Positions 50,296-62,671 of a stretch of 64,000 nt of DNA are shown one piece after another. Within the stretch, counting starts at the first letter, position 1. Each line of letters starts with the position of its first letter. The notes under the pieces are model-generated. The model ran no database searches and was not told the origin of the DNA. It worked only from the letters and a program-made list of their open reading frames with translations. The stretch is from Dehalococcoidia bacterium (GTDB lineage: Bacteria > Chloroflexota > Dehalococcoidia > Bin125). The stretch covers positions 1 through 64,000 of the forward strand of contig JAJDWB010000007.1 of the NCBI GenBank assembly GCA_022825855.1. The letters are read 5' to 3'. The position numbers were made by a program, and so were the translations under genes.

Positions 50296-50387
50296 GGAGA
50301 GGTGTCCGAGTGGCCGAAGGAGCCGATCTCGAAAATCGGTAGGTGCGGCGACGTGCCTCGTGGGTTCGAATCCCACCCTCTCCGCCA
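50296..50387 (+). tRNA. tRNA-Ser (anticodon CGA)
   Basis: The acceptor stem GGAGAGG pairs with CCTCTCC, followed by the discriminator G and an encoded CCA. The anticodon arm is CCGAT-CTCGAAA-ATCGG, giving anticodon CGA (reads UCG). A long variable arm (GGTGCGGCGACGTGCC) marks a class II tRNA, and the T arm is GTGGG-TTCGAAT-CCCAC. A second tRNA-Ser follows 25 bases later. Confidence 0.96.
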
Positions 50388-50412: not shown

Positions 50413-50502
50413 GGAGAGGTGCTGGAGTGGACGATCAGGCACGCCTGGAAAGCGTGTAGGGCTGCAAGGCCCTCGTGGGTTCGAATCCCACCCTCTCCGC
50501 CA
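50413..50502 (+). tRNA. tRNA-Ser (anticodon GGA)
   Basis: Acceptor stem GGAGAGG/CCTCTCC, encoded CCA, anticodon arm CACGC-CTGGAAA-GCGTG giving anticodon GGA (reads UCU and UCC), long variable arm GGGCTGCAAGGCCC, T arm GTGGG-TTCGAAT-CCCAC. Acceptor and T arms are identical to those of the preceding tRNA-Ser, so the pair arose by duplication and its two members are probably cut from one precursor. Confidence 0.96.
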
Positions 50503-59177: not shown

Positions 59178-60275
59178 TCAGTTGCCTGCCGCGACGGTAT
59201 CGGCGATCAGCTCGCCCAATGCCTCGGTGCCCAGCGATGCGTCGCCCTCGGAGGCGAGGTCGGCGGGGCGGTGACCGGCGGAGAGAGTCTCGATCACGGC
59301 CTGCTCAATCGTCGCCGCTTCCTGCTCCAGGCCGAAGGAGTAGCGCAGCATCAGGGCGGCGCTCAGGATCATCGCCATTGGATTGGCGATGCCCTGGCCC
59401 GCGATGTCGGGGGCGGTGCCGTGAATCGGCTCGTAGAGCCCGAGCGTCGAGCCGTCGGCGGCGGCGCCCAGCGAAGCGGAGGGCAGCATGCCCATCGAGC
59501 CCGCCAGCATCGAGGCCTCGTCGGTGAGGATGTCGCCGAACATGTTCTCGGTCACGATCACGTCGAAGTAGGACGGATGGCGGATCAGGTCCATGGCGCA
59601 GGCGTCGACCAGCCGGTGTTCCAGCGTGACGTCGGGATAGTCCTTCGCAATCTCTTCCGTGATCTCGCGCCACATGCGCGAGGTGTCGAGGATGTTGGCC
59701 TTGTCGACCGAGGTCAGCAGCTTGCGCCGGCCGCGGGCGGTCTCGAAGCCGAGCCGGACGATGCGCTCCACTTCCTCCTCGGAGTAAGCGAGCGTGTCGA
59801 CCGCCTTGCGTTGGCCGTCTTCATCCCAGCGGCGTTGCGGCTCGCCGAAGTAGATACCGCCGGTCAGCTCGCGCAGCACGACCATATCGACCGCCTCGAC
59901 GGTCTCGCGCTTGAGCGGAGTCGCGTCGGCGAGGATCGGCAGCATCTTGACCGGACGGATGTTGGCGAACAGGCCGAGGCCCTTGCGCAGTCCCAGGATG
60001 GCCTGCTCCGGCCGGACTGACGCCTTGGGATCGTCCCACTTCGGACCGCCTACGGCGCCGAAGAGGACGGCGTCCTGTGCCTGGCACATGTCCAGCGTCT
60101 CGTCGCGCAAGGCGACGCCGTGCGCGTCGATCGAGGCGCCGCCGACCAGGTCTTCGGTGTACTCGAAGGAGTGATCGAAGCGGCCGCCGAGCGCGTCGAG
60201 CACGCGGACCGCCTGCCCGATCACCTCGACGCCGATGCCGTCGCCGGGCAGCAGCGCAATCCTGTAGTGGGCCAT
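59178..60275 (-). CDS. leuB: 3-isopropylmalate dehydrogenase
   Basis: A 365-residue LeuB. Segments IALLPGDGIGVEVIGQAVRV, AVGGPKWDDPKASVRPEQAI, RELTGGIYFGEPQRRWDEDG and GTAPDIAGQGIANPMAMILS are diagnostic, with the metal-binding Asp residues in VDACAMDLIRHPSYFDVIVT and the following segments. It oxidises and decarboxylates 3-isopropylmalate to 2-oxoisocaproate with NAD+. Between it and leuD, on the same strand, lie three 52-codon genes. Confidence 0.97.
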   Translation of the reverse strand: MAHYRIALLPGDGIGVEVIGQAVRVLDALGGRFDHSFEYTEDLVGGASIDAHGVALRDETLDMCQAQDAVLFGAVGGPKWDDPKASVRPEQAILGLRKGLGLFANIRPVKMLPILADATPLKRETVEAVDMVVLRELTGGIYFGEPQRRWDEDGQRKAVDTLAYSEEEVERIVRLGFETARGRRKLLTSVDKANILDTSRMWREITEEIAKDYPDVTLEHRLVDACAMDLIRHPSYFDVIVTENMFGDILTDEASMLAGSMGMLPSASLGAAADGSTLGLYEPIHGTAPDIAGQGIANPMAMILSAALMLRYSFGLEQEAATIEQAVIETLSAGHRPADLASEGDASLGTEALGELIADTVAAGN

Positions 60276-60332
60276 GGAGTGATGTTCCTAGTCGTCGCTT
60301 GGGCGCTCACCCGGAGCGCGTTCAGGAGAGAC

Positions 60333-60491
60333 TCAACAGCCTGGAGCGCCGTAGTTTCCGCAGCACGTTTGCCGGTTGCGCAACCGGTCCCACGCGATCC
60401 ACAGCATGCCGCGCACCAGACCGCGTTCGTTGTCATCGCGCCGCAGGTTGGCGATCGCTTCGGCAAACGAAGGTCTCGGACGCTCACACAT
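60333..60491 (-). CDS. 52-residue Cys-tail protein, copy C
   Basis: An exact 52-codon gene (MCERPRPSFAEAIANLRRDD...) ending TCCGNYGAPGC then TGA. It is the third of three tandem paralogues, all 159 bases with stop. Shared with its sisters are a start followed by RPS or similar, an I-x-NLR core and the C-terminal CCGxYGxPGC. The middle (RGMLWIAWDRLRNRQT) is amphipathic and basic. The ribosome site is weak. No known family assigned; see the finding on the array. Confidence 0.7.
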   Translation of the reverse strand: MCERPRPSFAEAIANLRRDDNERGLVRGMLWIAWDRLRNRQTCCGNYGAPGC

Positions 60492-60618
60492 CGTACCCCC
60501 AGGGCTGCGCTGAGCCGCGTTCAGCGACCGTCGTCAGGATATACGTCCCACCGTGCGGACTGAACCGATGTGGCTACTCGTCTGTTGGACGCTCATCCTG
60601 AGCGTCGGGCGGCCCCGT

Positions 60619-60777
60619 TCAACAGCCGGGATCGCCGTAGCGACCGCAACACGAATCGCGCCGCCACAGCTTGATCAAGTTGGTGACGAACACGCTGCGC
60701 AGGAAGTGGATCAACCCTTCGCCGTTGCGCAGATTGGCAATTGCCGAGCCGCCGAGCTCGGGTTTCTCGTTGCACAT
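60619..60777 (-). CDS. 52-residue Cys-tail protein, copy B
   Basis: A 52-codon gene (MCNEKPELGGSAIANLRNGE...) ending SCCGRYGDPGC then TGA. AAAGGTGA lies 6 bases before the ATG, a good ribosome site, which supports translation in this frame. The middle helix LIHFLRSVFVTNLIKLWRRD is amphipathic. It keeps the IANLR core and the Cys tail although the rest is the most divergent of the three. An overlapping longer frame exists but has no conservation with the sister genes. Confidence 0.72.
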   Translation of the reverse strand: MCNEKPELGGSAIANLRNGEGLIHFLRSVFVTNLIKLWRRDSCCGRYGDPGC

Positions 60778-60914
60778 CCATGATCACCTTTCACCACTGG
60801 CTCTGTTCAGATGCTCACAGGGTAGATGGTGCAAATCGAAAAGTGCAGAAGCTATGCCTCGTGTCTATGGTCATCAGCCGCGTCGCGCTCGGCCCGAGCG
60901 CGCTCACCGGAGAC

Positions 60915-61073
60915 TCAACAGCCCGGATCGCCGTAGTTGCCGCAGCAGTTCTCGACTCTCCGGATCTTCAGCAGCGTGTTGTTGATCAGGCCATAGATGG
61001 CGTGCCGCCGGCCGATCGAGCGACGCAGGTTGGTGATGCTGTCGCGGACCGATGGTCTTGGATGTTTCGCCAC
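60915..61073 (-). CDS. 52-residue Cys-tail protein, copy A
   Basis: Starting from GTG at 61073 the frame is again exactly 52 codons (MAKHPRPSVRDSITNLRRSI...) and ends NCCGNYGDPGC then TGA. It has the HPRPSVRDSITNLRR opening that matches copy C (RPRPSFAEAIANLRR). There is no clear ribosome site, so the start is inferred from the equal length. It is the first of the array, 52 bases after the leuD stop, so it could be co-transcribed with leuD. Confidence 0.68.
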   Translation of the reverse strand: MAKHPRPSVRDSITNLRRSIGRRHAIYGLINNTLLKIRRVENCCGNYGDPGC

Positions 61074-61124: not shown

Positions 61125-61715
61125 CTAGACCGTGACGGGTTTCGTCGACGGGCGGGTCGACTCGAAGTCGGAGATCAGATCGTCGTGTTCGAGGGTCAGC
61201 GAAATGTCGTCGAGGCCGTTGAGCAGGCAGTGCTTGACGAACGGCGCGATCTCGAACGAGCGCGACCAGCCGCCCGGCGCGGTGACGGTCTGTTCTTCGA
61301 GACTGACCGTGATTGGCGTGTTCGATTCAGACTCGACCATGCGCATCAGCTCTTCCACATCGGGCTGCGAGAGCTGGATCGTGAGCAGGCCCATCTTGGC
61401 CGAATTGTTGCGGAAGATGTCGGCGAAGCTTGGCGCGATCACGGCCCGGACGCCCATGCCCTGGATCGCCCAGACGGCGTGCTCGCGCGAGGAGCCGCAG
61501 CCAAAGTTGGGTCCGGCCAACATCACGCTGGCGCCCTCGTACTCGGGCTGGTTGGTGACGAACTCCGGATCCTTGGCCCAGGCCTCGAAGGCGAACGGCC
61601 CGTAGCCGGTCCGCTCGATCCGCTTGAGGTACTTGGCCGGGATGATCTGGTCGGTGTCGACATCGGCGCGGTCAAGCGGCAGTCCGGTGCCGCTAAAGGT
61701 CGTGACGGGGTCCAT
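61125..61715 (-). CDS. leuD: 3-isopropylmalate dehydratase small subunit
   Basis: A 196-residue LeuD. Segments GTGLPLDRADVDTDQIIPAK, then NFGCGSSREHAVWAIQGMGV near residue 70, then VIAPSFADIFRNNSAKMGLL are diagnostic of the swivelling domain. It pairs with LeuC to isomerise isopropylmalate. In this genome it is next to the small Cys-tail genes and leuB rather than to leuC. Confidence 0.97.
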   Translation of the reverse strand: MDPVTTFSGTGLPLDRADVDTDQIIPAKYLKRIERTGYGPFAFEAWAKDPEFVTNQPEYEGASVMLAGPNFGCGSSREHAVWAIQGMGVRAVIAPSFADIFRNNSAKMGLLTIQLSQPDVEELMRMVESESNTPITVSLEEQTVTAPGGWSRSFEIAPFVKHCLLNGLDDISLTLEHDDLISDFESTRPSTKPVTV

Positions 61716-61783: not shown

Positions 61784-62671
61784 CTAGGCGAAGAACTCCT
61801 TGAGCGCGGCTTCGGTCTCGTCGGGGAGTTCTTCGGGGAGGAAGTGGCCGCAGGGCAGGCCGACGCCGGTGACGTCGGTGGCCCAGCGGTGCCAGGTGGC
61901 CATGAAGCGGCCGCGGCGGTTGGTCTGCCGTCCCGCGCCCCAGATGACGAACAGCGGGCAGGTGATCTTCTTGCCTTCGGAGCGGTCCGCGCGGTCGAGC
62001 CGCAGATCGAAGCGCGCGCCGGAGCGGTAGTCCTCGCACCAGCTTCGCACCGTCTCCTGGTCGTTGGCCGCGGCCAGGTACTCGGCCATCGCCGCCTCGG
62101 TGAAGACGGTTTGGCCGTCCTCGCCCGCCCAGGATCCGAGCATGCGCTTGAGGAAGAAATCGGGCGCGCCGTTGATCAGCGTTTCCGGCAGCGGAGCAGG
62201 CTGGGCGAGAAAGTACCAGTGGAATCCGCCGAGTCCGCCGGCGATGCCCATCTGCTCGAACTGCTCGGCCGTCGGAATGATGTCCAGGAGCGAGAGCCGC
62301 TCGACGCGCTCGGGATGGTCGAGCGCAAGGCGGTATGAGACGCGGCCGCCGCGATCGTGCCCGGCCAGGGCGAAGCGATCGAAGCCGAGGTCGGCCATCA
62401 GCTCGACCATGTACCGGGCCATGGCGCGCTTGGAGTAGGCCTCGCCGCCGCCGTCGCCGGGCGGCGAGTCGCTGGCGCCGTAGCCGAGCAGGTCGGCCAC
62501 GACCACCGTGTGCTGCTCGGCCAGTCCGGGCGCGATCTTGTGCCACATCGCCCCGGTCTGCGGGTAACCATGCAGCAGCAAGAGCGGAGAGCCGGAGCCG
62601 CCAACGCGGGCGAAGATCGGCCCCGCCTTGTGCTCGCGGAAGCCGGGGAACAGGGTCTCGGTGTCGGGCAT
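61784..62671 (-). CDS. Fluoroacetate/haloacetate dehalogenase-like hydrolase
   Basis: A 295-residue alpha/beta hydrolase. The nucleophile segment FALAGHDRGGRVSYRLALDH (Asp plus the Arg pair) and the halide-binding GGFHWYFLAQPAPLPETLIN are the hallmarks of fluoroacetate dehalogenases (DehH1/FAcD). The catalytic His lies near LPCGHFLPEELPDE. It would hydrolyse haloacetates to glycolate with inversion. Relatives with the same motifs can be epoxide or ester hydrolases. It is downstream of the acetoacetate-decarboxylase-like gene, with a repeat between them. Confidence 0.85.
   Translation of the reverse strand: MPDTETLFPGFREHKAGPIFARVGGSGSPLLLLHGYPQTGAMWHKIAPGLAEQHTVVVADLLGYGASDSPPGDGGGEAYSKRAMARYMVELMADLGFDRFALAGHDRGGRVSYRLALDHPERVERLSLLDIIPTAEQFEQMGIAGGLGGFHWYFLAQPAPLPETLINGAPDFFLKRMLGSWAGEDGQTVFTEAAMAEYLAAANDQETVRSWCEDYRSGARFDLRLDRADRSEGKKITCPLFVIWGAGRQTNRRGRFMATWHRWATDVTGVGLPCGHFLPEELPDETEAALKEFFA

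Follow-up and report, generated by a model that had tools for sequence, protein, structure and literature searches.

Three tandem small genes between leuD and leuB belong to a conserved Chloroflexota protein family with a three-cysteine C-terminal tail

Introduction

Between leuD and leuB of a Dehalococcoidia bacterium, three short open reading frames (ORFs) of identical length follow one another on the minus strand, which raises the question of whether they are genes and what their products might do. The locus lies in a 64,000-nucleotide stretch of contig JAJDWB010000007.1 (GenBank assembly GCA_022825855.1), hereafter called the window. According to the original prediction, made from the letters of this stretch alone, the frames encode related proteins under selection that share a core and a cysteine-containing C-terminus, fall in no named family, and carry a tail that could bind metal or flavin, form disulfides, or be recognized by a modifying enzyme or a protease.

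Results

The leuD-leuB interval

The features of the locus are summarized in Table 1. Three minus-strand ORFs of 159 nt each (52 codons and a stop) were indeed found in the leuD-leuB interval, and all three products end in the pattern CCGxYGxPGC, which reads CCGNYGDPGC in copy A and takes the forms given in Table 1 in copies B and C. The product of copy A is 37% identical to that of copy B and 42% identical to that of copy C; its GTG start codon is replaced by ATG in its orthologues. Most genomes of the genus have kept, upstream of leuD, an alpha/beta-hydrolase gene resembling haloacetate dehalogenases (61784-62671, minus strand, in the window). Two tandem tRNA genes were also observed in the window, on the plus strand at 50296-50384 and 50413-50499; at 89 and 87 nt they are long for tRNAs, and long variable arms are thus probable.

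Table 1. Coordinates of the small genes, their leu neighbours and the hairpins that follow them in the window.
Feature	Position	Strand	Description
leuD	61125-61715	minus	isopropylmalate isomerase small subunit; PF00694 match over cut-off here
Copy A	60915-61073	minus	52 aa, MAKHPRPSVRDSITNLRRSIGRRHAIYGLINNTLLKIRRVENCCGNYGDPGC, GTG start
Hairpin after copy A stop	60885-60901	minus	stem 7, loop 3
Copy B	60619-60777	minus	52 aa, C-terminal CCGRYGDPGC
Hairpin after copy B stop	60588-60606	minus	
Copy C	60333-60491	minus	52 aa, C-terminal CCGNYGAPGC
Hairpin after copy C stop	60303-60319	minus	upstream of leuB
leuB	59178-60275	minus	3-isopropylmalate dehydrogenase, named on inspection of its sequence; recurrent homologue downstream of the gene

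Coding status and selection

A degenerate DNA pattern for the tail and its stop codon matched three times in the 2,817,722-base assembly, all at the window locus, and gave no match in the reversed control of the same assembly. Copies from the genus were sorted into orthologue groups A, B, and C, and dN/dS was calculated according to Nei-Gojobori, with the tail taken as ten codons. The values were 0.024 for the tail and 0.146 for the rest in group A, 0 and 0.107 in group B, and 0.096 and 0.490 in group C, and the tail is variable in its synonymous codons. Selection on the protein, as originally proposed, is thus borne out by the orthologues, where dN/dS stays well below 1 (0-0.10 for the tail, 0.11-0.49 for the remainder). 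The paralogues of the window bear it out in part; their tail is constrained (dN/dS of 0.20), but their body lies near 0.85, with a synonymous distance close to saturation. Between the copies, it is thus the body that has diverged, whereas the tail was retained. Based on these sequence comparisons, the three ORFs are members of a protein family under purifying selection. That they are open frames arisen by chance between genes, in GC-rich DNA where long spurious frames are common, is rejected as wholly improbable in view of the homologues across the class, dN/dS values far below 1, and a chance expectation for the tail pattern, calculated from base composition, of ~8e-6 per genome.

Distribution and database comparison

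Tail-pattern scans and profile searches of the class and the phylum revealed many homologues beyond the window locus. When 84,980 species genomes were scanned, CCG[NRD]YG[DA]PG, a variant of the tail, was confirmed at 30 loci, all with record titles referring to Dehalococcoidia, Chloroflexi/Chloroflexota, or Dormibacteraeota/Dormiibacterota. Of the 393 genomes of the class, 40 contain the exact pattern (none in the reversed control), and a broader profile identified the family in 143, representing 83 of 226 genera. This broader profile had no match in 131 of the 220 class genomes with a completeness of 90% or more and a contamination of 5% or less. A profile search across the phylum detected the family in 58 of 400 genomes. 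Viral contigs and plasmids yielded nothing convincing, and a plasmid match (Citrobacter, E 0.9) was discarded as noise.

The expectation that no named family would cover these proteins held, as Pfam, NCBIfam, and the PDB gave no convincing match. The window copies matched nothing in Pfam-A, where the 53 members scanned produced one stray match to PF06530 (E 0.0029), and nothing in NCBIfam, where one stray match to NF038118 PEP_CTERM_CCXG (E 0.023) was observed among the members. A sequence-profile search of the PDB gave no match up to E 1. Literature searches found no match to the motif and, on function, nothing about the family. These proteins are a real, conserved small-protein family that is spread across Chloroflexota and has no name, not a local oddity, and the window ORFs are lineage-specific tandem copies of this free-standing family.

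Sequence features and predicted structure

With a regular expression for the tail, we collected 160 distinct proteins of 41-77 aa (median 52). The equal length of the window copies, taken at first as a sign of selection, is real at 52 codons each; as the family spans this range of lengths, it is a local trait. The I-x-NLR core is likewise common to all three window copies, but only its Asn is near-invariant family-wide; the family alignment contains two near-invariant Asn in the body. At the C-terminus, the wider consensus of the tail is CCG[NH]xG[EDQA]PGC. The three Cys and the Gly behind them are present, like the closing PGC, in 160 of 160 proteins, a uniformity that is partly circular because the regular expression defined the collection. 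Position 4 of the tail is Asn in 73 and His in 66 of the 160, position 5 is mostly Tyr or Pro, and position 7 is mostly Glu, Asp, Gln, or Ala. Among the profile matches that were read, for which the regular expression was not required, exceptions were seen at L225 (CCGHHGEPGGCE) and L251 (CCGNEGQVGC). The last Cys is the end of the protein in 154 of the 160 cases, and a few members extend beyond it with CE, CD, or longer ends; a free C-terminal carboxylate is thus usual, not essential.

For the body, which precedes the tail, the median net charge is +7, with positive values in 98.75% of the 160 proteins. An AlphaFold2 prediction from 30 family members, of low confidence (pLDDT 61, pTM 0.31), places helices at residues 9-18 and 22-41 and leaves the tail unstructured. 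The hydrophobic moment of helix 2 is 0.356, compared with 0.296 in shuffled sequences. As modelled, the protein probably consists of a basic two-helix body and a flexible C-terminal tail.

Variant members were also observed. The protein encoded at L134:6329-6475 (seen also at L122) has a His-rich N-terminus and extra Cys beyond the tail (PGCCATGSCSIGPEHPH), which is suggestive of metal binding. The gene at L214:3491-3631 contains an in-frame TGA where its relatives have Trp or Leu, and could be a broken copy, an assembly error, or a case of readthrough; selenocysteine was rejected since the TGA falls at this Trp/Leu position and not at a Cys.

Gene neighbourhoods

In representatives of nine families (f1, f16, f22, f33, f34, f56, f60, f66, and f68), the gene has leuD and/or leuB next to it in the same orientation, with leuD upstream at a spacing of mostly 6-120 nt, and several of the nine have the gene order leuC-leuD-gene-leuB-cimA. 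The leu neighbourhood is absent in most families carrying the gene. In Dormibacteria, the gene is preceded by hisA and a DUF3465-like gene, and in f20 and f43 it is found near rubrerythrin and iscS/iscU. Other neighbours include FprA (f48 and f76), a CopA-like ATPase (f14, f48, and f80), and ZIP transporters (f113 and f146), as well as SOD and SufB; apart from rubrerythrin, all of these outside the leu setting were named by reading the sequences. Outside the leu and Dormibacteria (hisA) clades, no common partner gene was found among the 139 nearest ORFs (199 Pfam families), where rubrerythrin and DUF1786, the commonest families, occur four times each, so the metal or redox flavour of the neighbours is not statistically established. 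In the protein tree, which has only 52 columns and is poorly resolved, the leu label changes at least six times on well-supported branches. Given these repeated changes and the lack of a common partner, we conclude that the link to leucine genes, though it recurs, is not essential, and that the protein works on its own.

Three families of the class have heliorhodopsin-like genes near their copy of the gene (L129:2010-2774, and upstream in L124 and L227), and a Pfam Heliorhodopsin match was obtained for two of the nearest ORFs scanned. The four DUF1786 matches (putative pyruvate formate-lyase activating enzyme) belong to nearest ORFs of non-leu loci, probably L125, L219, L226, and another.

A hairpin behind each copy

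Directly 3' of the stop codon, every copy in the window's genus is followed by a 7-bp hairpin with a GG-containing loop. In a set of 18 sequences, 90.5% of the hairpin cells are paired compared with 84.9% in shuffles. Both sides have changed in ten cells where 3.5 would be expected, and covariation scores 0.179 as opposed to 0.078. All three comparisons are inflated by the kinship of the rows; two more distant rows of the set are out of register with the hairpin. Genome-wide, the hairpin pattern was counted eight times and in the reversed control nine times, which leaves the three local copies as the only notable ones, and a genome-wide repeat was rejected as their source. A CsrA site in the GG loop was also rejected, as CsrA was not found in the assembly (96% complete). 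Candidate roles of the hairpin are mRNA processing, mRNA stability, and regulation of leuB.

Discussion

The tail is the most constrained element of the protein. We tentatively propose that this thiol tail may bind metal or sulfur and thereby service metalloenzymes such as the [4Fe-4S] isomerase LeuCD. The tail would be the working part. Its three thiolates, in many members joined by the His of position 4, would hold a metal ion, an Fe-S precursor, or a persulfide, and docking on a partner or client would fall to the basic body. Isopropylmalate isomerase, LeuCD, carries a labile, oxygen-sensitive [4Fe-4S] cluster, and in the leu setting the likeliest clients would be this enzyme or the divalent-metal enzymes of the pathway; in non-leu settings, other clients would be served. 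The proposal is consistent with the conservation of candidate metal ligands, namely the Cys-Cys-...-Cys tail in all 160 proteins and the position-4 His in 66 (figures made partly circular by the regular-expression collection). Neighbours with a metal connection, namely leuD in nine families and, in a small number of further ones, CopA, ZIP, rubrerythrin, or IscS/IscU, would suit it, a linkage that is not statistically established. Against the binding of a metal, three Cys are few for a stable site absent dimerization or a partner. The inconstancy of the leu link and the lack of a match in 131 of the 220 class genomes of high completeness also count against the proposal. Flavin binding by the tail, the other ligand first suggested, is without support.

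Bacterial copper/zinc metallochaperones and metallothioneins are also small proteins with a short Cys motif, and the occasional CopA-like or ZIP neighbours add to the likeness to metallochaperones. However, the new family has no match to known chaperone families, and whereas Cys makes up ~20% or more of a metallothionein, it has 3-4 Cys per 52 residues, the conserved ones all being C-terminal. A more far-reaching scenario, in which small proteins throughout the phylum deliver or protect Fe-S clusters or sulfur via a CCG[NH]xGEPGC tail and have repeatedly been recruited into the leucine operon for the oxygen-sensitive LeuCD, is speculative and, as a whole, improbable.

Two alternatives are close to the reading of the tail as a metal or sulfur binder, and each of them we regard as rather unlikely. 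The first is that the gene encodes a RiPP or cofactor precursor, with the helical part as leader and the last ten residues as core, the Cys of which would be modified by an enzyme encoded elsewhere. PqqA, the mycofactocin precursor MftA, and ranthipeptide precursors are short and helical and have a conserved C-terminal stretch, and the new family resembles them in this. Its helical body is divergent, its 10-residue C-terminus is near-invariant and unstructured, its tandem copies have the same tail, and a radical SAM gene is found close by at two loci (cluster 23). Unlike the known precursors, the family has no linked maturation enzyme and is distributed as a stand-alone gene. In none of the large clades does such an enzyme recur next to the gene, and Radical_SAM was detected in just 2 of the 139 nearest ORFs. 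Most peptide products are far less conserved than this tail, and the basic body likewise speaks against a precursor.

The second is a thiol redox switch or sulfur carrier, in which the Cys of the tail would form a disulfide or pass a persulfide to a client, as in the C-terminal arm of DsrC. Members of the DsrC/TusE group of sulfur carriers have a flexible C-terminal arm with conserved Cys, the last at or near the C-terminus, to which the tail with its final PGC can be compared, and the IscS/IscU neighbours in f20 and f43 would suit such a role. The new proteins, however, are about half as long, basic, and have three Cys within ten residues; they show no sequence relation to any PDB chain, and their modelled fold is of low confidence.

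A small regulator that binds a membrane, RNA, or a partner, with the amphipathic basic helix as its active part and the tail serving dimerization, would account for the charge of the body and the moment of helix 2. It appears quite doubtful, as the strongest selection falls on the tail and not on the helix. An attenuator controlling leuB, with the copies as leucine or cysteine leader peptides, would fit the location inside the leu operon and the conserved hairpin after each copy, and mycobacterial polycysteine leaderless short ORFs similarly place C-terminal Cys codons near genes of amino-acid metabolism. The new genes differ from the latter in lying inside an operon and at many other sites and in the conservation of the protein sequence itself. 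Leucine attenuation was rejected because Leu codons, of which the copies have 4, 6, and 4 among 52, do not form a run and because the copies are in the wrong position, between leuD and leuB and not at the head of the operon; with many sites away from leu genes, selection acting on the amino acids, and a tail kept across the phylum, attenuation of either kind is highly improbable.

The present results add a conserved but uncharacterized protein family to the largely uncultured phylum Chloroflexota. Its motif is sharply defined and testable, and CCGxxGxPGC at the end of a protein offers a simple annotation rule for genes that have no Pfam or NCBIfam model. The window copies are located in the operon of the labile Fe-S enzyme LeuCD, and the role of the family may be the handling of metal or sulfur; if the tail does handle either, these proteins would represent a new kind of small helper protein.
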